A stretch of DNA of 64,000 nucleotides from Antricoccus suffuscus. GTDB lineage: Bacteria; Actinomycetota; Actinomycetes; Mycobacteriales; Antricoccaceae. A program made the translations under genes and the position numbers. Where the stretch lies: positions 124,001 through 188,000 of the forward strand of contig NZ_PVUE01000001.1 of assembly GCF_003003235.1 (NCBI RefSeq). Direction: 5' to 3'. The notes beneath the pieces were generated by a model. It saw nothing but the letters and a program-made list of their open reading frames with translations, was not told the origin of the DNA and did not search any database. Each line of letters opens with the position of its first letter. Within the stretch, counting starts at the first letter, position 1. This document shows, one piece after another, positions 23,700 to 38,411 of the stretch.

Positions 23700-24682
23700 A
23701 TGACTTCCACTCGCTCGCGTGCGGGAAACAGGCATCGGGCCAGGTGTGCGCCCTCGATCGGTCGCAGGTCGATCGGACCGACGCGGCACTCGTCGCGCGC
23801 CAGGGTGCAGCGCGGCGCGAACCGGCAGCCGGCGGGCATCTGGTCAAACGTCGGCACCATCCCGGGAATCGGTACGAGCCGCCGGTTCTGCCCGCTCGGG
23901 ATCGAGCGCAGCAGCGCTTCGGTGTAGGGGTGCTGAGTCTGCGCGAAAAGGTCCATCACATCGGTGGACTCGACGACCTGCCCGGCGTACATCACCGCGA
24001 CCCGGTCACAGATGTCCGCGATGACGCCCAGGTCGTGCGAAATGAACAGGACCGCCAGATTTTCTTGCTCCTGAAGGTCCTTGAGCAGGCCGAGGATCTG
24101 GTCCTGGACGGTCACGTCGAGCGCGGTGGTCGGCTCGTCGGCCAGCAACAGCGCCGGCTCGCAGGCCAGCGCGATCGCGATGACCACGCGCTGGCGCATC
24201 CCGCCGCTGAAGTGGTGCGGGTAGTCGCTGGCACGTTTCGCCGCCGATGGGATGCCGACCCGGTCGAGCATCTCCACCGCACGCGCCCACGCCTTCTTCT
24301 TCGACCAGCCCAGATGCTGCCGCACACCTTCGGCGATCTGCTCGCCCACGGAGTACGCCGGGTCCAACGCGGTCATCGGCTCCTGGAAGACCATGCCGAC
24401 CTTGTGCCCACGGATTGCGCGCATCTGTTCCGCGCCGAGGGTGGTGAGGTCGGTGCCGTTGATCTTGACCTGGCCGGAGGTGATGTGTACGCCGGATCCG
24501 AGCAGGCGCAAGATCGCCAGCGCGGTCATCGACTTTCCCGATCCGGACTCGCCGACCAGCCCGAGGGTCTCGCCGGGAGCGATGGACAGGGACACCCCGT
24601 CCACGATCGTGATCGCGCCGTTGCGGGTTTGCGCCTCGACGACGAGGTCGGTGACCTCGAGGACATTTACGTCGGTGCTCAA
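23696..24682 (-). CDS. Peptide-type ABC transporter ATP-binding protein (DppD/OppD type)
   Basis: A 328-residue ATPase: Walker [10 protein letters not shown], signature [16 protein letters not shown], Walker [14 protein letters not shown], and the Cys-containing C-terminal extension [18 protein letters not shown]. It starts at TTG 24682, which overlaps the upstream permease stop (TTGA) and has AGGGAGG seven bases upstream. It is in the seven-gene operon 28117-20793. Confidence 0.92.
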
Positions 24683-25578
24683 CGTCGTACCTCCCTGCCC
24701 AGTGAGTCCCGGATCGCGTCCCCGACGGTGTTGAAAGCCAGCACCGTCAGCAAGATCAGCAGCCCGGGTAAGAGGACGAGTAGCGGATTGGTCGAGGCGT
24801 AGGTGACGGCCTTCTGCAGCAGCGATCCCCACGATGCGTCGGGCGCCTGTACGCCGAGGCCGAGGAAGCTCAGACCGGCTTCAAACAGGATCGAGAAGCC
24901 GACGGTCAGCGAGATCTGCACGATGAGCGGGGAGAGCACGTTGGGCAGCACGTGGGTGCGGATGATCTTGGTCATCGGGCAGCCAATCGAGCGTGCTGCC
25001 TCGATGAACGTCTCTTCCCGTACGACGATGGCCATGCCGCGCGCGATCCGGAAGAACCGTGGGGCGGTGGCGATGCCGATGGCCAACATCGCCTTGGTTA
25101 CGCCAAAGCCCAGCACCGCGACGATCGCCATCGCGAGAAGCAGGGTCGGGATGGCCATCAGCGCATCGTTGATCCGGCTGAGGGTCGCGTCGACCGCGCC
25201 GCGTTTGTAGCCGGCGATGAGCCCGAGAGGAAGTCCGATTGCCACACTGATCACGGTCGCCAGCGCGCCGGCGTACATCGTCACCCGAGTCGCGGCGATC
25301 AACCGGGACAAGAAGTCCCGGCCGAGGTCGTCGGTGCCGAGCAGGTGGGCGCCGGACGGTTTTGCAAGGGTGTTGGACAAGGTTTGCGCCGTGGGGCTGT
25401 CTGGCATTATCCACGGAGCCGCGATCGCGACGACGATCAGCAGGACGATGACCGCGAGCATCACCATCGCGAATTTCTGCGCGCGGAAGCGTCGCCAGAA
25501 GCGCCCGCCGCTGGACTCGCCGTCGTATGCGACAACCGGCGCCTGGCCTGTCTCGGAAACCTCTGAGGTGGTGTTCAT
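24679..25578 (-). CDS. Peptide-type ABC transporter permease (DppC type)
   Basis: A 299-residue integral membrane protein. HLLGTDDLGRDFLSRLIAAT is the DppC-type signature after the first helix, and EAARSIGCPMTKIIRTHVLP is the EAA loop that docks on the ATPases. Six hydrophobic segments are visible. It overlaps the DppB-type gene by ATGA. Confidence 0.92.
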   Translation of the reverse strand: MNTTSEVSETGQAPVVAYDGESSGGRFWRRFRAQKFAMVMLAVIVLLIVVAIAAPWIMPDSPTAQTLSNTLAKPSGAHLLGTDDLGRDFLSRLIAATRVTMYAGALATVISVAIGLPLGLIAGYKRGAVDATLSRINDALMAIPTLLLAMAIVAVLGFGVTKAMLAIGIATAPRFFRIARGMAIVVREETFIEAARSIGCPMTKIIRTHVLPNVLSPLIVQISLTVGFSILFEAGLSFLGLGVQAPDASWGSLLQKAVTYASTNPLLVLLPGLLILLTVLAFNTVGDAIRDSLGREVRR

Positions 25579-26516
25579 TCTGCTGCCTTTGGGTTGAGCC
25601 AGCCGTACGCGAGATCGACCAGCAGGTTGACCAGCACGACGACGACGGTGGCCAGCAGCACGGTGCCCTGGACCATCGGGATGTCACGGTCGAAGACCGC
25701 TTTGATCATGAGCGTGCCGATGCCAGGGATCGCGAACACCGACTCGATCAGCACCGAGAGGCCGAACAGCCTGCTCACCTGCAGTCCGGCGACGGTGACG
25801 ACCGGGATCAGGGCGCTGCGCAGCGCGTGCTTGATCAGGATGGTGCGCGGCTTGATCCCTTTGGCGTGCAGTGTGCGGATGAAGTCCAGCTGCAGGGTGT
25901 CGATCACGCTGGCGCGGGCCTGCCGCGCGACCTCCGCTGCGCCGCCGGCGGCCAAGGTGACGACGGGGAGCGCGAGGTGCGACACCCATTGGATCGGGTC
26001 TTCGGTGAACGGCACATAGCCGCCGGTCGGGAACAGGCCGAGGCTCACACCAAAGAATGTCACCAGCAGGATCCCGAGCCAGAAGTTCGGCAGCGCGATC
26101 CCGACAGACGATAGAAACAGCATTGCTCGGTCGAGCAGGCTGCCGGGACGAGAGCCGGCGATGACGCCGACGATCGTCCCGACAACCATCGACACGATGA
26201 GCGCGCCGACCACCAACGAGATCGTGACCCAGATCCGACTGGCGATCGCGGATCCGACGTTGTAGCTGGAGAACAGCGATGTGCCGAGATCGCCATGCAG
26301 CAGGCCCGCGAACCAGTTCCAGTAGCGGACGATGAACGGCTCGTCCAACCCGAGCGCTGCCCGGAGGGAGGCGATCTGGTCGGTTGTGGCGTTATCGCCG
26401 AGGAGCGTGAGCGTCGGGTCGCCTGGGATGAGGAGCGTCAACGCGAACACCGCAAGTGACACGATCCAGATGAGCACCACCATCATGCCCAGGCGACTGA
26501 GAATCTGACGCAACAC
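25575..26516 (-). CDS. Peptide-type ABC transporter permease (DppB type)
   Basis: A 313-residue integral membrane protein starting with an N-terminal helix (LGMMVVLIWIVSLAVFAL), then FIVRYWNWFAGLLHGDLGTS, typical of DppB, and a C-terminal EAA loop region with RTLHAKGIKPRTILIKHALR. It pairs with the DppC-type permease to form the channel. Confidence 0.92.
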   Translation of the reverse strand: MLRQILSRLGMMVVLIWIVSLAVFALTLLIPGDPTLTLLGDNATTDQIASLRAALGLDEPFIVRYWNWFAGLLHGDLGTSLFSSYNVGSAIASRIWVTISLVVGALIVSMVVGTIVGVIAGSRPGSLLDRAMLFLSSVGIALPNFWLGILLVTFFGVSLGLFPTGGYVPFTEDPIQWVSHLALPVVTLAAGGAAEVARQARASVIDTLQLDFIRTLHAKGIKPRTILIKHALRSALIPVVTVAGLQVSRLFGLSVLIESVFAIPGIGTLMIKAVFDRDIPMVQGTVLLATVVVVLVNLLVDLAYGWLNPKAAE

Positions 26517-26548
26517 GCTTGCCTCCTACTCCTTATATATAGGTGTGG

Positions 26549-28117
26549 CTACTTGGTGATTTCGACGTTGCGCAGATCGACCACGCTGGCGACGGTGCTC
26601 GGGATACCGCGCACCTTGTCCGTCATCGCGGTCGGCAGGCTCGCGCTGCAGATCGGCAGATGCATGTGCTGCTCGATCGTCACCTTCGACAGCGCCTGGT
26701 AGGACTTCGCGCGAGCGGCCTGGTCCTTGCCCGCCAGGCCCTCGGCGGCTAGCTTCGTCACCTCGGGGATGTCGAGAGCGCCGGGGTTAAACAGCCCGGT
26801 CGGTAGGTAGAGGCTGGACACGGTCCGTGACGGATCGCCGGCGCCGGGCCAGACCGACGTGTAGGCGTCGGTGACCTTCTGCGCGTTGAAGTTTCCGAGC
26901 AACTGCACCGGTTCGGTGATCTGAAGGTCGACCTTGATTCCGATCTTCTCGAACTGCTCAGCCAGGGCCTCCGCGACGTTGGAATACTGCTGGACGTTGA
27001 TCGCCGCGAGCGACATCTCGAAGCCGTCCGGGTAGCCCGCCTCGGTCAGCAGCGTCTTCGCCTTCTTTGTATCTTGTGCAATCGCGTCCTTCGGGACGTC
27101 CGTGGACGCGGCCCAGTACCCCTTCGGGAACATCTGCGCAGTCGGATCACACGCGCCACCGAGCAGGCCCTTGTTGATGCCGCTTCGATCTATGGCCAGC
27201 GAGAGCGCCTCGCGCACCTTTGGATTGGCCAGGGCGGGGTTCCGCGACATGTTGAGGTAGACGAGGTACGTCGCCGTACTCACCTTCGCAGGGTCGGCAA
27301 GCCGAATCCCCTGGTTCTTGGCCGAGTCGAGCTGGTTCATGTTGATGCTCGTGGCATCGAGCTCGTTGGTCGTAACGCTGCGCAGCCGCGTCTCTGGATC
27401 GAGCTGGATCATCATCTCGATCTTCTTGACGGCGTTCTTGTTGAGGTTGTAGTAACCCTCGAAGCGTTCGTAGCTGACCTTGACGCCGGGGTCGTCGGCG
27501 GTGACTTTGTATGGGCCTGCGCCGACCGGCATCAGGTCAAGGTCCGGGTTGCTCATCGCCGTCGGGCTGACCATCATCCCGGCGCGATCGGCCAGGATGG
27601 CGGTGAGCGCGCCGTTTGGCGCGTTGAGGTTGAGCTTGACCGTCTGCGGGTCGACGACATCGACCGTCTCAACGGTGGCCAGGTCGGGCTTGATGGTCGA
27701 CTTCGCGTTGGTCTTGCCGCGTTCTATGTTCGCCTTGACGGCATCGGCGTTGAACGCGGTCCCGTCGTGGAACTTCACGTCTTTGCGCAGCTTCAGGGTG
27801 AGGGAAAGTCCATCCGCGCTGTACTCGCTGGACTCGGCGAGCATTGGGACGACCTTGCCGTCCTCGTCCAGGTCGAAGAGGCGGTCGTAGACCGGAAGCA
27901 GGAAACCGGGGACGAACTGGTTGGCCGCGGTGACTGGATCGTAGTTCTTGCCACCGTCCGTGCCATATCCGAACCTGAGCGTGGCATTTGGGTCGGCGGC
28001 CCCCTTTGGTTCACCAGAGGAGCCGGAGCCGGTGCCGGCACAGCCGGCGAGCATCATTGTGCTGGCGACGGCGCCTATGAGGGCGCCGCGTAGAAAGCGG
28101 TTTTGTGTACGTGGCAT
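26549..28117 (-). CDS. Peptide-type ABC transporter substrate-binding lipoprotein (SBP_bac_5)
   Basis: A 522-residue lipoprotein: basic N-terminus, hydrophobic stretch and lipobox LAGC near residue 27, followed by a Gly/Ser linker and the family-5 solute-binding fold (LTLKLRKDVKFHDGTAFNAD near the N-terminal part). The ATG at 28117 has GAGAGGG upstream. It is the first gene of the operon and divergent from the AsnC-GAF regulator. The ligand may be a peptide or another small organic compound; the downstream hydrolases favour a catabolic substrate. Confidence 0.92.
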   Translation of the reverse strand: MPRTQNRFLRGALIGAVASTMMLAGCAGTGSGSSGEPKGAADPNATLRFGYGTDGGKNYDPVTAANQFVPGFLLPVYDRLFDLDEDGKVVPMLAESSEYSADGLSLTLKLRKDVKFHDGTAFNADAVKANIERGKTNAKSTIKPDLATVETVDVVDPQTVKLNLNAPNGALTAILADRAGMMVSPTAMSNPDLDLMPVGAGPYKVTADDPGVKVSYERFEGYYNLNKNAVKKIEMMIQLDPETRLRSVTTNELDATSINMNQLDSAKNQGIRLADPAKVSTATYLVYLNMSRNPALANPKVREALSLAIDRSGINKGLLGGACDPTAQMFPKGYWAASTDVPKDAIAQDTKKAKTLLTEAGYPDGFEMSLAAINVQQYSNVAEALAEQFEKIGIKVDLQITEPVQLLGNFNAQKVTDAYTSVWPGAGDPSRTVSSLYLPTGLFNPGALDIPEVTKLAAEGLAGKDQAARAKSYQALSKVTIEQHMHLPICSASLPTAMTDKVRGIPSTVASVVDLRNVEITK

Positions 28118-28263: not shown

Positions 28264-29298
28264 GTGCGTGACCAAAACGTTGCCGAACTAGATGACCTGG
28301 ACAAGTCAATAGTTGGCGCGCTGCAGCAGAACGGTCGCGCTTCAAACGTGGAGATCGGGCGTGCGCTCGGGGTAAGCGAGAAGACCGTCCGATCGCGAAT
28401 TGCGCGCCTGACCAGCGACCGAGGACTCCGAATATCGGCGGTGCTGGACGAGCCGATCGCAGCCGTGCAGATGCTGTATCTGATTGATGCCGAGCCAGGA
28501 CGGCGGTTTCATCTTGCCGAAGAATTAGCGATGCACCCGTCGGTCAACAACGTGCTGCTCGCCAACGGAGCCGCGGACCTTATCGTCGGCGCGTCGTTCT
28601 CCGATGCCGATAACGCGCTCAAGTTCTTGGTGAACACGATCGAGGGTTCGGCCGACGTGCGCTCATCCACAGACTGCACGATCATCTCGCGGATCGGCGC
28701 CGATGAAACCGCGATGCACTCGGATGCGCGCGTTCCGGAAATCGACTCCGATGTGCTGCTGGAGGCGACCCTGCATCCGCCGGCGTTTTCCCACCTCAAC
28801 GAGATTCTCGAGTGGATGTGCCACACTGCGGCGCGTGCGTTCGGCGCCGATCACGCGCTGTCCCTCATCTACGCGCCTGAGCGCACGCCCGAGATTCCAG
28901 CGTCGCCGCGTGTGCTAGGTGCTGGAACCTTCGGTTTCTCGCCGACCTATCTCGATCGGATCAGCGAACGGCTAAAGAGCGGCACAAACGTCGGCGTCAT
29001 TCGGCGTTGCCTCGAGACCCGTCAGCACGTCTATGTCGACGATGCGAGGACGAGTCCGCTAATGAAGGGCGCTGAGGATGTCATTCGCAGCGAGGGGTAC
29101 ATTTCGATGCTCGCGGTCCCCGTGCTGTTCGGATCGATTCCGTTCGGAGTGTCGACGATCTACTTCGATCGACCGACGACGATTGACGAGCACTACGTCG
29201 CGACGATCCAGCGCTTCATCGACCAATGCGCCTTCGCGATTGCGCGGGTCGAGGAAGGCGTAACCGAGTATCTCCTGGGTGGCCGACTCGAAAACTAG
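28264..29298 (+). CDS. AsnC/Lrp-type HTH regulator with C-terminal GAF domain
   Basis: A 344-residue regulator. Residues about 6-60 form the AsnC-type HTH (LDDLDKSIVGALQQNGRAS, EIGRALGVSEKTVRSRIARL). An Lrp ligand-binding-like domain follows (about 60-150), and the C-terminal half (about 170-335) looks like a GAF sensor domain with MLAVPVLFGSIPFGV. The GTG at 28264 is chosen for the GAGGAAG site upstream. It is divergent from the importer/hydrolase operon and most likely controls it in response to a small ligand. Confidence 0.8.
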   Translation: MRDQNVAELDDLDKSIVGALQQNGRASNVEIGRALGVSEKTVRSRIARLTSDRGLRISAVLDEPIAAVQMLYLIDAEPGRRFHLAEELAMHPSVNNVLLANGAADLIVGASFSDADNALKFLVNTIEGSADVRSSTDCTIISRIGADETAMHSDARVPEIDSDVLLEATLHPPAFSHLNEILEWMCHTAARAFGADHALSLIYAPERTPEIPASPRVLGAGTFGFSPTYLDRISERLKSGTNVGVIRRCLETRQHVYVDDARTSPLMKGAEDVIRSEGYISMLAVPVLFGSIPFGVSTIYFDRPTTIDEHYVATIQRFIDQCAFAIARVEEGVTEYLLGGRLEN

Positions 29299-30121: not shown

Positions 30122-30883
30122 CTAGGCCGATATTCGCGCGGTCAGCTGATGAGCCAGATCGGCAGGGGAGCGGTCGCCGAGTTGGCGGCGTATCTCCTCG
30201 ATCGCCGCGGTGACAGTCACTTTCCCGGCGGCGGCATACTCAGCGTCCCTGTCGACGTACTTGAGCGACTCAGCGATATCGAAGGTGATCTGCGGCTCGG
30301 GGGCCGAGATCGACAGTGGGGAGGAACGACTGTACGGCGCGAGCACGCGCTGCCAGACCGCGCACCGCTCCGCCCATCCTGGGTCCGGCTCGGTATCCGC
30401 CTGTGGGTCGTCGGCCGCGGCCACCGGATAGGACTCCATCCCGCGCAACTGGAGGAAGACCTGTTCCAGCCGGTCGTGCTCGGTGCCGAAAAGCACGTAG
30501 TTCCAGGTGCGCGACGGATCTTCCGGATCATCCATAAACTGTGCCCGGCACCGCATGTCGAGCTTGGTCGGCAGCGGGATGACCGACGGTCGGTGCATGA
30601 TGCCGTGTGCCACATCGAGGAACTCGGCCGCCTGGTGCAGCAGTCCGCGTTCGGTCGTGGTGCTGATGACTAGATCCGCTTCGGAGATCTGGCCGTGCGA
30701 GAGCCGCTTGTAGACGGCCTCGCGGTCGTCCGGCGCGTCCAGCAGGTCGATCGCGATCGACGCCAGCGCCCGTACCGTCTCCGCACGCCACACCGGCCAG
30801 CCGAACCGCTCCAGCGCGCGGCTGATCGACGGCAGACTCACCGAGGCGGGCATGCGGTATCCCGTGGGTTGGCTATAGCTCAT
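30122..30883 (-). CDS. Hypothetical protein, last gene of the PIG-L/ATP-grasp/GT2 operon
   Basis: A 253-residue soluble protein I do not recognise. It has no signal peptide or membrane segment. An N-terminal helical part contains FGWPVWRAETVRALASIAID and a repeated acidic/Arg pattern; the middle has LVISTTTERGLLHQAAEFLD and DPSRTWNYVLFGTEHDRL. The start overlaps the end of the alpha/alpha-barrel gene by 11 bases, so it is almost certainly co-translated with it. Codon use and composition match the operon. It should work with the other six products. Confidence 0.7.
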   Translation of the reverse strand: MSYSQPTGYRMPASVSLPSISRALERFGWPVWRAETVRALASIAIDLLDAPDDREAVYKRLSHGQISEADLVISTTTERGLLHQAAEFLDVAHGIMHRPSVIPLPTKLDMRCRAQFMDDPEDPSRTWNYVLFGTEHDRLEQVFLQLRGMESYPVAAADDPQADTEPDPGWAERCAVWQRVLAPYSRSSPLSISAPEPQITFDIAESLKYVDRDAEYAAAGKVTVTAAIEEIRRQLGDRSPADLAHQLTARISA

Positions 30884-31988
30884 CGCGCAGAGGCTCCTTC
30901 ATAGGTCGTTCGTCCCATATCGCCGGTACACCGGCAAGTGCTTGTGCGGCAAGCAACATCCACGCGGTGGCTGCCACCGCGGGCGCCGCGGTCATTCCCC
31001 ACGCCGAGTCCGCGCGGGTAGCCGCGGGCCATGCCCCGCTGCGCAGTCTCGCCGCGTCGAGCGCACTGAGCGTACGGCGCGCCGCGGCGGTCTGGTGCAG
31101 GCGACATTGCGCCAACGCGACCCCGGCCGATCCTTCGAACCACACCAGGGGTTCGGTGCTCGGGGCTTGTGGTCCGTAGCCGATAACCGGGGGTGCGACC
31201 GACGAAAACCGGGCGACGTGCTTCAGCGCTGCCTGCGCCTTACCCGACTCGCCGACGGCATGCAGGAAGATCGCGCCCCACGAGTTCACGTCCAACGCCT
31301 CGTCGTGGTCGGGGCCGTCGAGAGTCCAGCCCTGCAAGAAATGTCGGTCCTTGGCGTCCCACAGCCGTGTGACGACCGAGGTGCCGAGCAGGCTGGCGGC
31401 GGTCGCGACGGCCGCATCGTCCACGACGGATCGCGCGAGCGACAACGTATGCCAGGCGTCGAGGTTGTGCTCCGTGGACGCCCACGTGATCGCGACGGTG
31501 GGATCGAAACTGCCGTCCGGCAGGTAGGCGCCGTACCCACCGCTGACCAGTCCGGTCATCGTTCCGCTTCGCACCTGCTGCGCCAACAGCCAGCGCACCG
31601 CCCGTTCGGCGGCGTCCACGACCGGCGGGCGCGCGGCGTCGTTCTGCGGCACAGTGGCAATGTAGCGCAGCACGGCGTACGCCGCGATGCTGTGGATCCC
31701 GGTGCGATATTCCGGCAGCCCGGCCGCCGGGTTGAGTGCGGCGGCCGACGCGATAAACGCGCCGTCGTGCGGCCCGCCCGCCGTCTGCAGCCGCAGCAGC
31801 CCGGTCACGAGAATCTGCGCGGTCGCTGCGTCACCCAGCGACAGCGCAGTCAGCAGCGCGAGCGCCTGGTCGTAGGCGTATGTACGCCCCGACAGCGGAT
31901 CCCCGGCAGGTACGTCGAACGAGCGCACGAGACCGGTAGTGCTGAGTTGGGAGCGGATCCACTCCCATGAGCGCTCCGTCGTGCTCAT
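30873..31988 (-). CDS. Predicted alpha/alpha-barrel (six-hairpin glycosidase-like) protein
   Basis: A 371-residue protein with repeated helical hairpins. The motifs TYAYDQALALLTALSLGD, STEHNLDAWHTL, LDVNSWGAIFL and WFEGSAGVALA are spaced as in six-hairpin glycoside hydrolase-like proteins, and the conserved Asp/Glu in EHNLDAW and WFEG may be catalytic. No signal peptide is seen at the chosen start, ATG 31988, which overlaps the small membrane-protein gene (ATGA). It could trim or modify the glycan made by the adjacent GT2. A protein-fold prediction would settle the family. Confidence 0.65.
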   Translation of the reverse strand: MSTTERSWEWIRSQLSTTGLVRSFDVPAGDPLSGRTYAYDQALALLTALSLGDAATAQILVTGLLRLQTAGGPHDGAFIASAAALNPAAGLPEYRTGIHSIAAYAVLRYIATVPQNDAARPPVVDAAERAVRWLLAQQVRSGTMTGLVSGGYGAYLPDGSFDPTVAITWASTEHNLDAWHTLSLARSVVDDAAVATAASLLGTSVVTRLWDAKDRHFLQGWTLDGPDHDEALDVNSWGAIFLHAVGESGKAQAALKHVARFSSVAPPVIGYGPQAPSTEPLVWFEGSAGVALAQCRLHQTAAARRTLSALDAARLRSGAWPAATRADSAWGMTAAPAVAATAWMLLAAQALAGVPAIWDERPMKEPLRDEL

Positions 31989-32125
31989 CAGACCCACCAC
32001 CGCTGCCGGACGTAGGCGAGCGCGACGACGAACACCAGCGAGCCAAGCCCCTTCCAGAGCAGCCGCAGCTCGAACCGTTTGTCCTGGACCAGCTGCTGCT
32101 CGCGGGAGGTCGGCTGATCGTTCAC
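31988..32125 (-). CDS. Small single-pass membrane protein (45 aa)
   Basis: A GTG at 32125 overlaps the glycosyltransferase stop (GTGA) and the stop overlaps the next ATG (ATGA), so the frame is fixed on both sides by coupling. The product has a charged N-terminus (REQQLVQDKRFELRLLWK) and one transmembrane helix (GLGSLVFVVALAYV), ending RQRWWV. Probably an accessory subunit of the membrane glycosyltransferase, by analogy with small PgaD-like partners; I cannot show homology. Confidence 0.65.
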   Translation of the reverse strand: MNDQPTSREQQLVQDKRFELRLLWKGLGSLVFVVALAYVRQRWWV

Positions 32126-33636
32126 GACGCGGCCACCTTCCCGGTCTTCTCGGTCTTGTCCCAGGTCGTTGCGGCACCACGGAACTGTGCGACGTACGCC
32201 GCGAACGTCACCGCGCACAGGAGCGGTCCGAATCCGACGATGGCCACTAGCAGCGGGATCACCGGCCGGGCACGGCGTACCCGGTCCAGTCGGTAGATCG
32301 CCCAGGCGGCGAGCATGCTGGCCGAGGTCCAGATGTACGCCGCGAGGGCGAGCGCGTGGCGAGTGTGTTGCGTCCAGTCAAGCCCGACCCCCTCGCAGAC
32401 CATTCGGATCAGCTCGTGCATCGGCGCCGGCACCAGCACCCACGCGATGATGACGAGGCTGACCAGCCCGGGAAAGAGCACCGCCTGCCGCCAACTGCGG
32501 CGGGCGACCGCGCGGTCGATCAGCAGCGTGTACGTCGTGGTGAACACAAACGCCAGCGCCGTGATACTCCAGTAGGTCTCGAACAGGATCCGGGCACCGT
32601 TCGCGTCGATGAACCACATCACCACCAGCGACACCGAGACCAGCAGCATGAACGCGGGCAACAGCAGCGTGGAGTACCACTGCAGCCCGAACCAGACGTT
32701 GCCGAGGTGATGCACTCGGCTGGGCCGGAAAAAGACGTTACGGAAGCGGCTAGTGACCTGCAGGTTGCCACGCGACCAGCGCAGCCGCTGCTTCCACAGC
32801 CCGATCACGCTGGCTGGCTCCTCGGCCAGGCACTGCGCGTTGCCGTCGAAGATGACCTTCCGCCCGCGGATCTGGGTCAGCAGCGTGGTCACGGTGTCCT
32901 CGGCGAGGGTTGCCGTGTCGATCTGACCGCCGAGCGCGACGAGGTTCTCCCGGCTGAGCAACTGCGCGCCGCCGGCCAGGCACGCCTGCGCGCGGGCGAC
33001 GTTCTGCGCGCGGCGGGCGGCGGCCTGCGCCGTGGTGTATTCGTAGCCGATGTAGCGGCTCATCCAGTTAGGCGGCTCGCTGGCCTCCCGGATGAACGCC
33101 GTCACCGCGCCCACCTCGGGGTCGGCCAGGTGCCGCGCCATCTTCGCGATCGCGTCCGGCTTGAAGACCACGTCCGCGTCGGTGATCAAGACGGCGTCGG
33201 CCCAGTCGTCCTCCAAGATCATCCGAAGCCCGTGGTTGAGGGTGTGTGCCTTGCCCTCGCCGCCCTTCGCCCGCCGGAGCGCCACGACCCGCCCGGGGTA
33301 GAGATCGGTCTTGGCTTGCAGCAGCTCCGGGGTGCCGTCGGTGCTGGCGTCGTCGACGACCACGATCCGCAGCCGATCGGGCGGGTAGTCCATCGTCATC
33401 ATCCGGTCGACCGAGAACTTAAGGACGGGCGCCTCGTTCCACGCCGGCACCAGGACCGCGATGCGCGGCAGGTACGACGGGTCGGCCCGGTCGTAGTGCG
33501 AGAACTTCCAGTGCACGGCAATCAGTAGGTAGCCGATGATCGAGCCCAGCATTGGCAGCGCACCGATGATGATCAGCACGCTCAGGACCCATCCGGCGGC
33601 GGTGGTCGGCGTGTCCAGTGCCAGCGAGGCGCTCAA
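32122..33636 (-). CDS. Processive membrane glycosyltransferase family 2 (PgaC/cellulose-synthase-like)
   Basis: A 504-residue enzyme: N-terminal helix, GT-A domain with PAWNEAPVL, VVVDDASTDGT, ITDADVVF, the TLAEDTV acceptor-site motif and QRLRWSRG (the Q-x-x-R-W motif of polymerising enzymes), then four to five C-terminal helices that would form the export channel. This architecture fits poly-N-acetylglucosamine, hyaluronan and cellulose synthases. It starts at TTG 33636, overlapping the PHP gene stop (TTGA). It is probably the polymer-making core of the operon; the sugar is unknown. Confidence 0.88.
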   Translation of the reverse strand: MSASLALDTPTTAAGWVLSVLIIIGALPMLGSIIGYLLIAVHWKFSHYDRADPSYLPRIAVLVPAWNEAPVLKFSVDRMMTMDYPPDRLRIVVVDDASTDGTPELLQAKTDLYPGRVVALRRAKGGEGKAHTLNHGLRMILEDDWADAVLITDADVVFKPDAIAKMARHLADPEVGAVTAFIREASEPPNWMSRYIGYEYTTAQAAARRAQNVARAQACLAGGAQLLSRENLVALGGQIDTATLAEDTVTTLLTQIRGRKVIFDGNAQCLAEEPASVIGLWKQRLRWSRGNLQVTSRFRNVFFRPSRVHHLGNVWFGLQWYSTLLLPAFMLLVSVSLVVMWFIDANGARILFETYWSITALAFVFTTTYTLLIDRAVARRSWRQAVLFPGLVSLVIIAWVLVPAPMHELIRMVCEGVGLDWTQHTRHALALAAYIWTSASMLAAWAIYRLDRVRRARPVIPLLVAIVGFGPLLCAVTFAAYVAQFRGAATTWDKTEKTGKVAAS

Positions 33637-34331
33637 CGCGCCGGGGTCACTTCATGCACATAGGCCCACTGCCCGACGTCGGCGGCGCGGTGCGCATCGC
33701 TGCCGGCGGTCAGCCGTACGCCGCGGGCGGCGAGCCCGGTGAGCACCCGCGCGGACGGGCAGCGCCACTTCTCGTTGGCCTCCACCGCGGTGTCCGTGGC
33801 GAGGCACGCGCCGGCCAGCTCGTCGAGCAGCTGATCAGACACGGCCGACTCGTCGAGCCCGCACTTCGGCAGGATGCTGAACAGGTGCGCCAGGATCGCT
33901 GGGCGCGGGGCGGCGCGGACCGCGGCGGCGGTGGCGCCCACCAGCTGCTCGACCGCCAGCGCAGGTGTCAGTTCGCCGGAGCCGAGTGACGCACGCACCG
34001 CGTCCGGGTGCAGCGGACCGGTCGGCCCGGGAAACTGGTGGTCGGCGATCAGCAGGTAGTCCAGCTCTTCGATACCGGACGGCAGGTCGAGTCGACCGGC
34101 GGTGTCCATGATCTTGACTTCGACGCCGCACTTGATATTCAGGCCGTCTATCCGCAGCGCGCGGACCTGGCCGATGTAGTCGGGCAGCCACGTCGTACCC
34201 GCGCGGACGTGATCGCTCAGGCCCCACGTGTGCAGGCCCGCGTCGCGCGCCGCCGCCGCCATCACCTCGATGCTGTCGGCGCCGTCGCTTATCGAGGAGT
34301 GCGTGTGCCAGTCGACACCGCGATCGATCAT
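33633..34331 (-). CDS. PHP-domain phosphoesterase/hydrolase
   Basis: A 232-residue PHP protein: DWHTHSSISDG with the first two His ligands, LHTWGLSDHV, KCGVEVKIMD, LLIADHQFPG, AILAHLFSIL and the closing GSDAHRAADVG. All expected metal-binding positions are visible, so it should be active on a phosphomonoester, for example a sugar phosphate, histidinol-phosphate-like compound, or phosphotyrosine. It overlaps both neighbours by 4 bases. The frame extends upstream into the ATP-grasp gene, but the ATGA junction at 34331 fixes the start. Confidence 0.85.
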   Translation of the reverse strand: MIDRGVDWHTHSSISDGADSIEVMAAAARDAGLHTWGLSDHVRAGTTWLPDYIGQVRALRIDGLNIKCGVEVKIMDTAGRLDLPSGIEELDYLLIADHQFPGPTGPLHPDAVRASLGSGELTPALAVEQLVGATAAAVRAAPRPAILAHLFSILPKCGLDESAVSDQLLDELAGACLATDTAVEANEKWRCPSARVLTGLAARGVRLTAGSDAHRAADVGQWAYVHEVTPAR

Positions 34332-35329
34332 CCGGCGGCCACCGGAGCCTGGATCGTGGTGTATTCCTCGATCGGGACAACGACGTCGGCCCAGTGCCGC
34401 ACGACCGCGACCTCGGTGAAGTCGATGCTGTCGGGGATCCTCTCGCCGTACGCCGCGGCGACCGCGAGAGTGGGCATGTCGACGCCGGCGGCCATCGTCA
34501 GCGCCATGGTGCCGGGGAAGCGCGGGTTGACCTCGAGTAGTGCCGGCGTACCGTCCACGGCTCGACGGGCCTGGACGTTGACGACACCGACGACACCGAT
34601 GGCCTCGGCGACACTGCGGCCGAAGGCGATGAGCGACGGGTCGTGGACGGTCCGCCCGGCGACCGCGATACCGGAGTCGACCTTGTCCCGGCGGCGCGGC
34701 ACGGCCGACACGATGTGACCGTCCGGTCGGCCCAGCACGTCGATCGAGAACTCCTCGCCGGGCAGGTACTCCTGCATGATGTAACTGCCGTCGCGCGGGG
34801 TCTCCCCGAGTGCTTCGGGGCCGTCGATGACGGCGAAGCCGCGCCCGCCCGCACCCGCGCGGGGCTTGACGATAAAGGGCCGACCCAGCGTGCTCATCGC
34901 GTGGTCGGTCGTATCGCACTCGAGCAGCATCGTGGTGGGAACGCGCACGACCGACGCGCAGCGCTGCATGAGCTGCCACTTGTCGAGACAGCATTCGAGG
35001 GTGGCGACGGTTTCGACCAGCAGCCGGATGCCGTGCGCGGCGAATGTGTCCGCGGCCGCCGACACGTCCGCGAGCTCGACGTCCACGGTCGGGATGACCA
35101 GATCGGCGCCGTGCGTGCGCGCCTCCTGCAACAGGGCAGGGACAAAGTCCGGATCGTCACCTCGACGCAGCAGCACCCTGTCCTCGGGCGGCACCAGATA
35201 CAGCCCCACGGCGTAGGGGTCGATGTCACCGGCGATCACCCTATACATAGGAGTGAGCGCGCGGATCAGCGTCACGGCAGCCGCGCCACCTGCGCCGGTG
35301 ACGAGAACGGTGGACTGGTGCTGGCTCAT
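34328..35329 (-). CDS. ATP-grasp carboxylate-amine ligase-like protein
   Basis: A 333-residue ATP-grasp protein of the CarB/PylC-like group: N-terminal VLVTGAGGAAAVTLIRAL preATP-grasp domain, ATP-binding PFIVKPRAGAGGRGFAVI and YIMQEYLPGEEFSIDVL, and metal-binding LLEVNPRFPGTM. These enzymes form amide bonds between an activated acid and an amine, or carboxylate phosphates. In this operon it could join an amino acid or other acid to an amino sugar freed by the PIG-L deacetylase. That role is inference. Confidence 0.85.
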   Translation of the reverse strand: MSQHQSTVLVTGAGGAAAVTLIRALTPMYRVIAGDIDPYAVGLYLVPPEDRVLLRRGDDPDFVPALLQEARTHGADLVIPTVDVELADVSAAADTFAAHGIRLLVETVATLECCLDKWQLMQRCASVVRVPTTMLLECDTTDHAMSTLGRPFIVKPRAGAGGRGFAVIDGPEALGETPRDGSYIMQEYLPGEEFSIDVLGRPDGHIVSAVPRRRDKVDSGIAVAGRTVHDPSLIAFGRSVAEAIGVVGVVNVQARRAVDGTPALLEVNPRFPGTMALTMAAGVDMPTLAVAAAYGERIPDSIDFTEVAVVRHWADVVVPIEEYTTIQAPVAAG

Positions 35330-36456
35330 GTGGGGACCTTCTGTCCGTCGTTGATTGGCATGACCGGCGCCAGTGGCGCGGCGGCGGTGACCGGCTTGGC
35401 GGAGCGTGTCGGGGGAGCGCTCATGCTGCGGATGACCTCGAACGGCTCGGCATACCGCGCCCGAGGGGCGAGGTTGCGAGCCCAGTAGCGGGCACCCGCG
35501 ATCACCATTTCAGGCTCGAGGTAGGACCGCTCGCGCTGCGAGTCAAACAAGCTGAGCACCTCGACCTTGCGCACTACAACCTCGTCGATAGCCACGAACT
35601 TCGTCGGTGCGAAATCGTTGGTCGCCGACGGGGACTGGTAGGCGAAGATCTGCGGCACCCGGCGGCTCGCGCTGATCGTTGCGATGTGGACGGCGCGGTG
35701 GTCCTGATGATTGTCGTTCTTGGAGTGCACATAGATGATTGTCGGATCGAACGCCTGGACCACGCATTCGATCATCTGGATGGTGTCCACGCCGGAGTCG
35801 ATTCTGGTGTCCGGAAGGTTGGCCAGCATCAGCCGCGCACCGATGGTCTGTGCCGTCGCGGTCGACTCCTGGACGCGCTGACTAACGTCGCCACCCACTT
35901 GCCCGTGGCTCATCGTCAGCACCGAGACGCTATCGCCGCGGCGCCGGTGATCGAGCAGCGCACCTGCGCAACCGATCTCCACATCGTCCGGGTGCGCGCC
36001 GATCGCGAGGACACGCTCGGCACGCGCATCCGCCGCGACGAGGGAATTGTCGACCGTGGTGCTCAGGGCTATCGCGTCCGTGGGGTCGACGACATCGCTG
36101 ACGCCGGCCCGCATAGCTTCGACAAGCACCTTCGAGTCGAGGGAGCTTGCGGCGCCGGTAAGCACGATCTTGGCGTTCGGGCTTAATGCGTGGAGGTCAC
36201 GGATAAGGTAGACGCCATCTTCGTCGCCGATGGTGTCCGGCTCGATGAAGACGAAACTGAAGTTGCCCAGACCTGACGCGACGTCCATTGCGTTGGCTGT
36301 CGTCGTCGTGATGCGGCGACATCCCAGCCGGTCGAGGGTCGGGGCCGTCGCCTCTTCGTAAGTCGACCCGAGTACGAGAACGATAGGCCTAGGCGCGCCG
36401 AGGCGCTGCTCGATGGTGTCAGGCAACGCAAGGTCGAGCGCTGTGGAGTCGTTCAA
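35326..36456 (-). CDS. Pseudo-receiver domain fused to PIG-L-family zinc deacetylase
   Basis: A 376-residue fusion. Residues about 24-130 look like a response-regulator receiver (IVLVLGS, FSFVFIEPD, KIVLTGAAS, EAMRAGVSDVVDP), but the phospho-acceptor position is Glu72 and the late conserved Lys is missing, so normal phosphorylation is unlikely. From about residue 148 lies a LmbE/PIG-L domain with AIGAHPDDVEIG and the second zinc motif in KNDNHQDHRAVH. Such enzymes remove N-acetyl groups from amino sugars. It is the first gene of the seven-gene operon. The start is a TTG at 36456 without a clear ribosome site, so the N-terminus is uncertain. Confidence 0.82.
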   Translation of the reverse strand: MNDSTALDLALPDTIEQRLGAPRPIVLVLGSTYEEATAPTLDRLGCRRITTTTANAMDVASGLGNFSFVFIEPDTIGDEDGVYLIRDLHALSPNAKIVLTGAASSLDSKVLVEAMRAGVSDVVDPTDAIALSTTVDNSLVAADARAERVLAIGAHPDDVEIGCAGALLDHRRRGDSVSVLTMSHGQVGGDVSQRVQESTATAQTIGARLMLANLPDTRIDSGVDTIQMIECVVQAFDPTIIYVHSKNDNHQDHRAVHIATISASRRVPQIFAYQSPSATNDFAPTKFVAIDEVVVRKVEVLSLFDSQRERSYLEPEMVIAGARYWARNLAPRARYAEPFEVIRSMSAPPTRSAKPVTAAAPLAPVMPINDGQKVPT

Positions 36457-36855: not shown

Positions 36856-37647
36856 TCACGCAGCGGTAAATCGCACCTCGCCGAGGTCGTGGCTGAACCG
36901 CGCCGAGTATTCGCCGGGAGTCGCGGGCCGGGCGGGCAGCAAGGTGCCGGTCGCGATGATCGATCCCTTGGGAAGTGAGTAATTCAAGCTGCGGATGAGC
37001 CATTGGGTCGTGTCGTACGCCGTACCCACCTTGGGATTGGCGCGGCCGGTCTCGGTCTGCCCGCCGGGAAACCGAACTTCGGCGGTGACCTGCGTGAGCT
37101 CTTCAGGGTCAAGTCCCGGTCGCCAGGAGTCGCCGAGCACCAACAAACCAGCGAGCCCGTTGTCGGCGGCCATCGCAGGCAGTGCAACGACTGCCCCAGG
37201 CGCGGTCGGGTGCCAGTTGCGGAATCTGCCGATCGGGAGCTCGAAACCCGCACCCATCTCCACGCTGCCGGCGATGTCGGAAGTGGACACGTCGCCGGAC
37301 AGGTCGGCGGTGGTGCGCAGCAGAATCTCCGGTTCGACCAGCGGCACGTTGTTAGCCGCGACGTTGACGTGTGCGCCGGACGGCAAGAGTTTCGTGTCCA
37401 GCAGTGTCCCGCGCATAAGCGAGGCGCCGCCGCCGACCTTGTAGCCGCGTGGCGTGCCGCCGTACGCCGAGCGCAGTCGCTCAAGTGTCAGTTCTTGCAC
37501 GCGGTAAGCGTCGTCAATCGCCAGGTCGTTTAGCGCCGGTGGGAAGTCGTTTAGGTCGCCGGTGGCTGCATCCGTCCGTGCCTCGAGTACGTCGTACGCC
37601 GAGGTCAGTCGGTCGACCCAAGCGTTGAGATCAGCATCGTTGGTCAT
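36856..37647 (-). CDS. 2-keto-4-pentenoate hydratase/FAH-superfamily protein (MhpD-like)
   Basis: A 263-residue protein of the MhpD-like branch of the FAH superfamily: RGYKVGGGASLM, VEPEILLRTTADL with the acidic metal ligands, VEMGAGFELPIGRF and AADNGLAGLLVLGD. These enzymes hydrate or decarboxylate 2-keto acids in aromatic-ring degradation. It appears monocistronic, between terminator-like hairpins. A deleted remnant of the same gene lies at 29350-29435. Confidence 0.8.
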   Translation of the reverse strand: MTNDADLNAWVDRLTSAYDVLEARTDAATGDLNDFPPALNDLAIDDAYRVQELTLERLRSAYGGTPRGYKVGGGASLMRGTLLDTKLLPSGAHVNVAANNVPLVEPEILLRTTADLSGDVSTSDIAGSVEMGAGFELPIGRFRNWHPTAPGAVVALPAMAADNGLAGLLVLGDSWRPGLDPEELTQVTAEVRFPGGQTETGRANPKVGTAYDTTQWLIRSLNYSLPKGSIIATGTLLPARPATPGEYSARFSHDLGEVRFTAA

Positions 37648-37868: not shown

Positions 37869-38411
37869 TCAGCCCTGGATTCGGGTCCCTGGGCGGAGGA
37901 GCGCGTCGATCATGCCACCGGTCTCGTGGATGAAATGCCACGCCCACGCGAGGACCGAGGCTTTGGGCTTGCTCGCGACCATGTAGACCTTGATCGGTGT
38001 CGCCTGCTCGACGAGGACCCGCGCGCGGGTGATGTGGTACGTCGAGGTCACCACGACAATGGACTTCCAGCCGTGCTGCGCCGCGAGCTTTGCGATCGCG
38101 TGCGCTTCGCCGCGCGTGTCGTCCGGCGACGGCACGAAACAGATCACGTCCGGACTCGTGTCGGTCTTGCACTCCTTGTTGGCGCGGGCGTTTTCCGTGC
38201 CGGGGGAGTTGGACACGACAAGCGTCGGCGCGATGCCCTGCGCGACGAGTTTCTGGCCGACGGGCAGACGGTCCGGCGCGCCGCCGAGTACGACGACTGC
38301 GTCGGCGTGCTTCGGATGATCCACGGCCGGGGCGACGAAATAGAAGTAACAGGCGATCAGCCACACGATGAGGAGCGCGCAGATTCCGGCGAGGAAAGGG
38401 TGTCGGCGCAT
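37869..38411 (-). CDS. YdcF/SanA (DUF218) family membrane protein
   Basis: A 180-residue protein with an N-terminal membrane helix (ICALLIVWLIACYFYFV) and the DUF218 domain: DAVVVLGGAPDRLPVGQKL, VICFVPSPDDTRGEAHAI and VTSTYHITRARVL. The family is linked to envelope integrity (SanA) but has no established reaction. A decayed paralogue lies at 20070-20616 and a possible tail fragment at 48064-48103, so the gene has been copied several times in this region. Confidence 0.82.
   Translation of the reverse strand: MRRHPFLAGICALLIVWLIACYFYFVAPAVDHPKHADAVVVLGGAPDRLPVGQKLVAQGIAPTLVVSNSPGTENARANKECKTDTSPDVICFVPSPDDTRGEAHAIAKLAAQHGWKSIVVVTSTYHITRARVLVEQATPIKVYMVASKPKASVLAWAWHFIHETGGMIDALLRPGTRIQG

Follow-up and report, generated by a model that had tools for sequence, protein, structure and literature searches.

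A conserved actinobacterial operon predicted to make an amino-sugar surface glycan, and a clade in which a barrel protein related to phage proteins stands in the place of a kinase

Seven overlapping genes, here called A to G, lie on the minus strand of a 64,000-nucleotide stretch of the Antricoccus suffuscus genome (contig NZ_PVUE01000001.1, positions 124,001 to 188,000; this whole stretch is called the window below) and are read from window position 36456 down to 30122 (Table 1). We lean toward the view that A to E are the core of a pathway which makes and exports an amino-sugar surface glycan, and that in the clade of the window copy a regulatory switch has been lost and F and G are present instead. 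The argument is built on the sequence, namely on gene order, conservation of motifs, the existence of two versions of the operon, loss of the receiver residues, and homology of F to phage proteins, and from these we infer what E, F, and G do, which substrates are used, in which direction each step runs, and that export and phosphorylation take place.

The core recurs with strict gene order across many actinobacterial lineages and is apparently undescribed. Scanning one genome per species (84,980 species) with an alignment of the PHP protein C gave 132 relatives, and the best 80 (L051-L130) were analysed. Of the 75 loci containing all four of A, B, C, and D, 73 have them side by side in the same orientation, a collinearity far beyond chance, while the complete A-to-G order recurs in 8 of the 80 other loci. 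The hosts of the core include Microbacterium, Cellulomonas, Blastococcus, Nakamurella, Serinicoccus, Tessaracoccus, Rothia, Streptomyces, Actinopolyspora, and a Chloroflexi metagenome-assembled genome. The original prediction, which was made from the letters of the window, had treated the seven genes as one set and proposed to look for the same order in other actinobacterial genomes; the order indeed holds for the core, so that A to E are the shared part and F and G fall outside it. It had placed all seven genes on one strand, which was confirmed gene by gene, and had taken them for a tightly overlapping unit, which the conserved order in relatives supports. Overlaps of 4 or 11 bases, claimed for every junction, exist at five of the six (4 bases at A/B, B/C, C/D, and D/E; 11 at F/G), E and F sharing a single base (TGATG). 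The small membrane partner proposed for the glycosyltransferase is also conserved: a small open reading frame with one hydrophobic stretch directly follows D in 72 of 76 loci, overlapping it by 4 bases in 68 of the 72.

The distribution of the core was also examined in defined genome samples. Among 249 genomes of the window's order, 38 had an ATP-grasp match at an E-value of 1e-30 or below, and 18 besides A. suffuscus were strong (below 1e-70); all 18 of their wider loci contained C, 17 contained D, and 16 contained A, and a contig end cuts one of the two that lack A. The ATP-grasp gene was found in A. suffuscus only among five genomes of its own family, while 3 of 396 genomes sampled from the phylum carry the core PHP gene, A. 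suffuscus being one of them, as do 39 of 247 genomes of Microbacterium, the genus of L126, two of the 39 (G642 and G643) being known beforehand. The glycosyltransferase gave no match on plasmids at an E-value of 1e-60, and in phages distant partial matches only. The loci of 11 of the 19 weaker ATP-grasp matches in the order sample (L022-L032) were dropped as paralogues, with no other core gene in about 4 kb; they belong to a second group of related ATP-grasp domains, in open frames of about 380-830 codons.

All four enzymes of the core, originally proposed as a glycan-making set, look catalytically competent, because the motifs of the PIG-L, ATP-grasp, PHP, and family 2 glycosyltransferase (GT2) proteins are invariant in the relatives. 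The alignments comprised the window protein and 13 to 15 relatives, the significance of the residues being that known for these families, and the Pfam scan covered six operon proteins, that is, all except E. A has a PIG-L domain (PF02585, 77.5 bits against a gathering threshold of 28.2) and belongs to that superfamily by its metal motifs AHPDD and HQDHRA (HQDH), invariant in 14 rows. Its best NCBIfam model is BshB1 (79.5 bits, below the cutoff of 182.5), and it is below the cutoffs of other thiol deacetylases too (BshB2, 22.9 against 195.25; Mca, 15.9 against 277.15). B matches ATPgrasp_Ter (PF15632, 105.1 bits), is close to the PRK12767 group, and has 2pn1 as its nearest solved relative by sequence; K155, E266, N268, and R270 are invariant in 15 rows. 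C matches PHP (PF02811, 38.3 bits against a gathering threshold of 26.4), and nine residues of the metal-ligand type (H9, H11, D16, H41, E71, H98, H149, D212, and H214) are invariant in 16 rows. D matches Glyco_tranf_2_3 (PF13641, 101.1 bits), and its VDD, DAD, ED, and QxxRW (QRxRW) columns are invariant in 16 GT2 rows. Among NCBIfam models D scores best against PgaC_IcaA (TIGR03937), in favour of a glycan synthase. Hydrophobic segments flank the catalytic domain of D on either side, with four segments by hydropathy in the window copy and five to eight, partly overlapping, in seven relatives. The mean hydropathy of the window copy of E is 1.81 over 17 residues, above the limit of 1.7, and 1.58 over 19 residues, just below the limit of 1.6. 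An anti-phage defence system was rejected as a reading of the operon: none of the seven proteins matches PADLOC.

From these families a scheme can be proposed. D, assisted by the one-helix peptide E, would build and translocate a chain based on N-acetylhexosamine (HexNAc), and the PIG-L domain of A would deacetylate the sugar donor or a lipid-linked intermediate in the cytoplasm. B would couple a further moiety to the amine exposed in this way (or to a carboxyl of the sugar), perhaps in the form of a phosphorylated building block, and C would take off the phosphate.

The operon exists in two versions, which differ downstream of the core. A histidine kinase is encoded downstream, within four genes of the core, in 49 of the 80 loci, and upstream only in 13, 11 of which are Blastococcus; the domains of the two kinases examined are PAS, HisKA, and HATPase. 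In 54 of the 62 loci the BLAST match of the kinase extends into the N-terminal sensor part, and some of the other 8 kinases (e.g., those of L061, L062, and L069) may be unrelated to the family. In the second version E is followed by F and G, as in the window and 8 loci of Tessaracoccus, Serinicoccus (four), Pseudactinotalea, Occultella, and Rothia, and no kinase of the family lies near any of these nine. F and G occupy the position of the kinase or the regulator in other loci. A tree of A to D from 76 loci unites the nine F/G loci in a single clade (support 1.0), and the named hosts that were looked up belong to Propionibacteriales and Micrococcales. Because these loci are one clade despite distant hosts, the operon seems to move as a unit between hosts, and the exchange of kinase for F/G seems to have occurred about once. 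The sensor part of the kinase was not found in any of the seven F/G genomes searched (the window's, L051, L052, L054, L056, L057, and L059; L053 and L055 lay outside the search), whereas all 4 kinase-version genomes used as positive controls contained it, although a distant kinase could be missed, because the L103 query matched the L127 control at only 2.8e-17. The sensor part is also present in the genome of Nakamurella leprariae (L060), whose core locus has neither version; at that locus A runs in the opposite direction to B-C-D and has a degenerate receiver.

The original prediction had described A as a PIG-L fusion. The PIG-L part is confirmed, and the fusion partner is now identified as a response-regulator receiver, which is degenerate in this copy: Pfam Response_reg is matched in 10 of 14 family members and not in the window protein. 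At the positions of the acidic pair, the phospho-accepting aspartate (D), the threonine or serine (T), and the lysine (K), window A has GS, P, G, and D, while A proteins of kinase loci have DD or ED followed by D, T, and K. The last three residues (D/T/K) are intact in 52 of 52 scorable loci counted strictly as having the kinase, two further A genes being cut short, and in none of the nine F/G loci, all of which have D at the K position. Among the remaining 17 rows (16 of the 80 loci and L034), 11 have D/T/K, 1 is missing, and 5 depart from it, those of L060 and L034 fully, that of L063 mostly, and those of L066 and L067 partly. Such a pattern would be expected of a kinase that phosphorylates A, with the constraint being lifted once the kinase was gone, and because of it phosphorylation probably once gated the deacetylase and, in the window, probably no longer does. 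In many relatives the operon kinase would target the receiver of A and, where present, the CheY-like protein, which would make deacetylation switchable by a signal; in the window clade the receiver would be dead, with the hydrolase-like F and with G replacing kinase and regulator.

F was predicted to be a barrel protein that trims the glycan, and the barrel is confirmed. Its model (predicted local distance difference test score, pLDDT, 86.5) is an (alpha/alpha) barrel, matching the dextran dextrinase 9ju0 best (Z 35.4, root-mean-square deviation 2.6, 327 residues aligned) and next the methylmannose polysaccharide hydrolase MmpH (7qsj; Z 32.4, root-mean-square deviation 2.7, 308 residues aligned). 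F thus has the (alpha/alpha)6-barrel fold of glycosidases and epimerases, sequence assigning it to no single family, and the fold does not fix the reaction, because epimerases rank close behind glycosidases. It has no Pfam or NCBIfam match, and no solved structure was found for it by sequence at an E-value up to 1. E173 and E285 are invariant in 9 bacterial F rows and may be the acid pair of an inverting glycosidase. All eight F relatives have an N-terminal extension (a signal peptide by eye, flagged by hydropathy in 4 of 5 checked) and a beta domain, long or short. In window F the first helix is joined straight to the barrel, with neither signal peptide nor beta domain, so a secreted glycosidase beside the core is not indicated in the window; trimming is doubtful here because the signal peptide is absent, and window F may act in the cytoplasm or may have changed its role. 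An F homologue of 598 amino acids was also seen at about L034:13577-14575, on the opposite strand and one called gene from the start of A, with no G detected; this genome belongs to the window's order.

The system might instead be decaying in A. suffuscus, the locus no longer working as it does in relatives, given the lost receiver residues, the missing signal peptide and beta domain of F, and the finding of no family kinase near the F/G loci or in the seven genomes searched. We consider this very improbable, since all frames are open and tightly overlapping, the catalytic residues of A to D and both glutamates of F are intact, and the sharing of the receiver loss by all nine F/G loci speaks for a stable variant and against decay.

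F has relatives in phages. It matches two tail-fibre families of PHROGs (3.3e-28 and 6.3e-25), and half of the 14 phage records given by a tblastn search are of Microbacterium; the other matches, to six records of Thermus and one of Coprococcus, are far weaker. The seven Microbacterium phage proteins, from RubyRalph, Fransoyer, SadLad, A3Wally, Big4, Zooman, and one more record, are 34-38% identical to window F over 82-84% of its length, while the full-length Tessaracoccus F (L051) is 31-33% identical to them over 88%, the beta domain included. They fall into two groups: one of genomes of about 62 kb (host M. paraoxydans), in which the homologue is annotated as a minor tail protein in 2 of 3, and one of genomes of about 192-195 kb (host M. 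foliorum), in which it is annotated as hypothetical in 4 of 4. The homologue comes after two further minor tail genes in RubyRalph and lies two genes past the portal gene in A3Wally. An alignment of five bacterial F proteins with those of RubyRalph and A3Wally shows W169-N175 (WASTEHN), E285, D40, and D233 retained in all seven. Two phage homologues (L144:3315-5156 and L145:3297-5132), one annotated as a minor tail protein and one as hypothetical, are candidate depolymerases.

Among bacteria, F occurs in 1 of 247 Microbacterium genomes, a genome without a core PHP match, and no core gene is near it. This lone F is secreted-looking and 41% identical to window F; it lies 107 bases from a divergent ROK gene, which is followed by nagA (TIGR00221, 232.8 bits, cutoff 225.65; the whole region is L147:8776-13059), and sugar-transport genes are near. 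This neighbourhood suggests a substrate containing N-acetylhexosamine. Because F matches phage proteins, its glutamates are kept, and the lone F adjoins nagA, an exported HexNAc-based glycan is suggested as the product of the core.

G follows F in all 8 other F/G loci. It has no match in Pfam, NCBIfam, PADLOC, or PHROGs, no solved structure was found for it by sequence at an E-value up to 1, and no homologues were found in phages. Its model (pLDDT 81.4) gave no Foldseek match at an E-value of 0.001 or below; a second fold comparison, limited to Foldseek's own list, gave Z scores of at most 3.6 and excludes nothing. In a class sample of 394 genomes, F and G were each found in the A. suffuscus genome only (1 of 394).

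In two genera the neighbours of the core suit a role in the biofilm matrix. Upstream of the core of a Blastococcus (L092:3339-5855) are genes for a protein resembling camelysin/TasA (PF12389, 42.4 bits; 25.8 for the TasA equivalog, whose cutoff is 450), for a signal peptidase of the SipW type (TIGR02228, 62.0 bits, cutoff 51.85), for another secreted-looking protein, and for a receiver-Hpt protein. In Cellulomonas the core is followed at about 4 kb by a SipW-like gene on the other strand. SipW-like genes are present in 22 and TasA-like genes in 15 of the 80 loci, all of them Blastococcus or Cellulomonas. As SipW-like genes number 1-5 in each of 12 genomes (seven of Blastococcus or Cellulomonas and five others), their proximity by chance is unlikely per genome by our own estimate, though only two genera show it.

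Several findings weigh against the view that the core makes and exports a glycan under a switch since exchanged for F and G. As for the enzymes, D scores 114.8 bits against PgaC_IcaA, far below the equivalog cutoff of 422.3; the best solved relative of D by sequence is 6yv7, a family 2 enzyme which we take to be a non-processive membrane mannosyltransferase; neither nucleotide-sugar precursor genes nor a dedicated exporter were found in the operon; and E was not found in loci L062, L063, L069, and L097. As for the switch, of the 49 loci whose kinase lies downstream, no more than 40 have a separate CheY-like receiver gene between it and the core; neither kinase nor F/G is nearby in 10 of the 80 loci, several of these being at contig ends; several loci with neither version retain D/T/K in A; and the correlation of receiver and kinase is that of one clade, about one independent event and not nine. 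The window F described above has no signal peptide or beta domain, and the association of F with nagA is a single locus. Finally, TasA and SipW were not found near the core in other genera, Microbacterium loci included; a SipW-like gene above the cutoff exists anywhere in 4 of 7 F/G genomes, and the sole SipW-like match of A. suffuscus is below the cutoff (50.7 against 51.85 bits; contig C5, 95798-96085).

Some of these points would fit an operon that makes a small conjugate or a glycolipid, and not a polymer, by the logic of mycothiol or bacillithiol: the glycosyltransferase would add HexNAc to an acceptor, the PHP protein would dephosphorylate the product, the PIG-L domain would deacetylate it, and the ligase would add an acid to the amine, with the GT2 being membrane-bound because the acceptor is a lipid. 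The four enzyme types map one to one on the steps of the thiol pathways, A scores best against BshB1, 6yv7 is presumably non-processive, and all PHP metal ligands of C are conserved. A single membrane GT2, moreover, does not prove polymerisation. We nevertheless regard the small-product reading as unlikely, since A scores below the BshB1 cutoff, the enzyme is a GT2 whereas MshA and BshA are of family GT4, and the secreted-looking glycosidase-type barrel shared with phages, together with TasA and SipW in two genera, points to an extracellular polymer.

The core might otherwise decorate an existing envelope glycan, such as a wall polysaccharide or a lipid-linked precursor, the GT2 adding side-chain sugars and A, B, and C altering amino groups. 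One glycosyltransferase in the core and no precursor-supply or dedicated export genes would be in keeping with this, as would the patchy distribution and the spread over distant hosts, which suit an accessory decoration; phages, moreover, are generally known to attack decorated wall glycans often. On the other hand, it is more usually synthases that have the QxxRW motif and a one-helix partner such as the one conserved next to the GT2 here (72 of 76 loci), and we judge decoration to be improbable.

If the synthesis and export of an amino-sugar glycan by A to E is true, common soil and plant bacteria would have a candidate surface glycan not known before, sugar deacetylation would be controlled by a response regulator whose enzyme output is unusual, and the target of a phage protein family could be guessed from host genes. 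A wider proposal, which we offer as a doubtful one, is that these operons are a hitherto undescribed class of surface-glycan machine in which a kinase gates de-N-acetylation via the receiver-PIG-L protein and the ATP-grasp and PHP enzymes add a group to the amine, and that in one transferred sub-lineage the phospho-switch was swapped for the phage-type depolymerase F and the new-family protein G, so that host and phage would share an enzyme against the same glycan. These readings are testable in Microbacterium strains with phages already isolated.

The genes are listed in Table 1 together with their neighbours. A codon-usage gene caller gave the same seven genes, except that it started G at 30853; the start at 30883 is backed by a conserved N-terminus in relatives ('M.YSQP.GYR' or 'M.WSQP.GYR'). 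A gap of about 400 bases lies 5' of A, followed by the hydratase-like and the DUF218/YdcF-type genes, and about 0.8 kb past G is a convergent regulator gene. At 28264-29298 the window encodes an AsnC/Lrp-type DNA-binding protein with a C-terminal GAF domain, a fusion that seems unusual, and its gene is divergent from a peptide-type ABC importer set named by eye.

Table 1. Genes of the operon and neighbouring features, in window positions
Feature	Position	Strand	Description
A	35326-36456	-	receiver-PIG-L (LmbE-type) de-N-acetylase fusion, 376 amino acids, TTG start
B	34328-35329	-	ATP-grasp ligase, 333 amino acids
C	33633-34331	-	PHP-domain metallo-phosphoesterase-like protein, 232 amino acids
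D	32122-33636	-	membrane GT2 glycosyltransferase, 504 amino acids
E	31988-32125	-	45 residues, one hydrophobic stretch, GTG start
F	30873-31988	-	(alpha/alpha) barrel, glycosidase/epimerase type, 371 amino acids, without signal peptide or beta domain
G	30122-30883	-	253 amino acids, family not recognised
Hydratase-like gene	36856-37647		5' of A
DUF218/YdcF-type gene	37869-38411		5' of A, beyond the hydratase-like gene
AsnC/Lrp-GAF gene	28264-29298	+	AsnC/Lrp-type DNA-binding protein with C-terminal GAF
ABC importer set	24679-28117		peptide type, substrate-binding protein and permease

As the original prediction had supposed, no description of this gene set was found in the openly licensed literature searched, nor one of receiver-PIG-L fusions. 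The operons for poly-N-acetylglucosamine (Pga/Ica) and cellulose (Bcs) likewise have a membrane GT2 with the D, DxD, ED, and QxxRW motifs, a small membrane protein beside the synthase (a likeness here of position and conservation only), and an amino-sugar de-N-acetylase, and a secreted-looking barrel is co-encoded in the F/G relatives. Unlike in those operons, D is below the PgaC and CelA cutoffs, and the ATP-grasp and PHP enzymes are extra. The PgaB and IcaB deacetylases are secreted and of the NodB type, whereas the deacetylase here is a PIG-L domain fused to a receiver with no secretion signal seen. No cyclic di-GMP domain was found in the six proteins scanned against Pfam.

Mycothiol and bacillithiol synthesis shares with the operon a glycosyltransferase, a PIG-L deacetylase, and an ATP-dependent ligase acting on an amino sugar; it differs from it in having a GT4 enzyme in place of a membrane GT2, in the BshB1, BshB2, and Mca cutoffs, below which A scores, and in the receiver fusion.

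A precedent for the logic of ligation is the HS:2 capsule of Campylobacter jejuni, in which a GT2 (Cj1438), a TupA-like ATP-grasp amidoligase, and a phosphatase (Cj1435) act in sequence on the polymer, giving a sugar decorated with an amide (PMC11800379). The amidoligase uses serinol-phosphate or ethanolamine-phosphate, and the phosphate ester is then dephosphorylated (PMC11800379). In that system the ATP-grasp is TupA-like and the phosphatase of the HAD type, compared with the PRK12767-like ATP-grasp and PHP protein here; the GT2 forms the N-terminal part of a protein with several domains, and the amidated sugar is a uronic acid (PMC11800379). By analogy, the PIG-L domain in our operon would supply the free amine for ligation.

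The F-like proteins of Microbacterium phages resemble bacterial F in their beta domain and barrel, and those of RubyRalph and A3Wally also retain the two glutamates. The phage proteins differ in being encoded among phage structural genes instead of in a bacterial operon. The TasA-SipW biofilm module has its likeness in the SipW-like and camelysin/TasA-like genes that Blastococcus and Cellulomonas carry some 2-5 kb away from the core, with the difference that only two genera have them and that the TasA-like protein is far below the TasA equivalog cutoff. Because the operon falls short of some of the cutoffs or features tested, we claim no membership in the Pga, Bcs, or thiol systems; in how it works, the operon is probably akin to the synthase-type surface-glycan operons.

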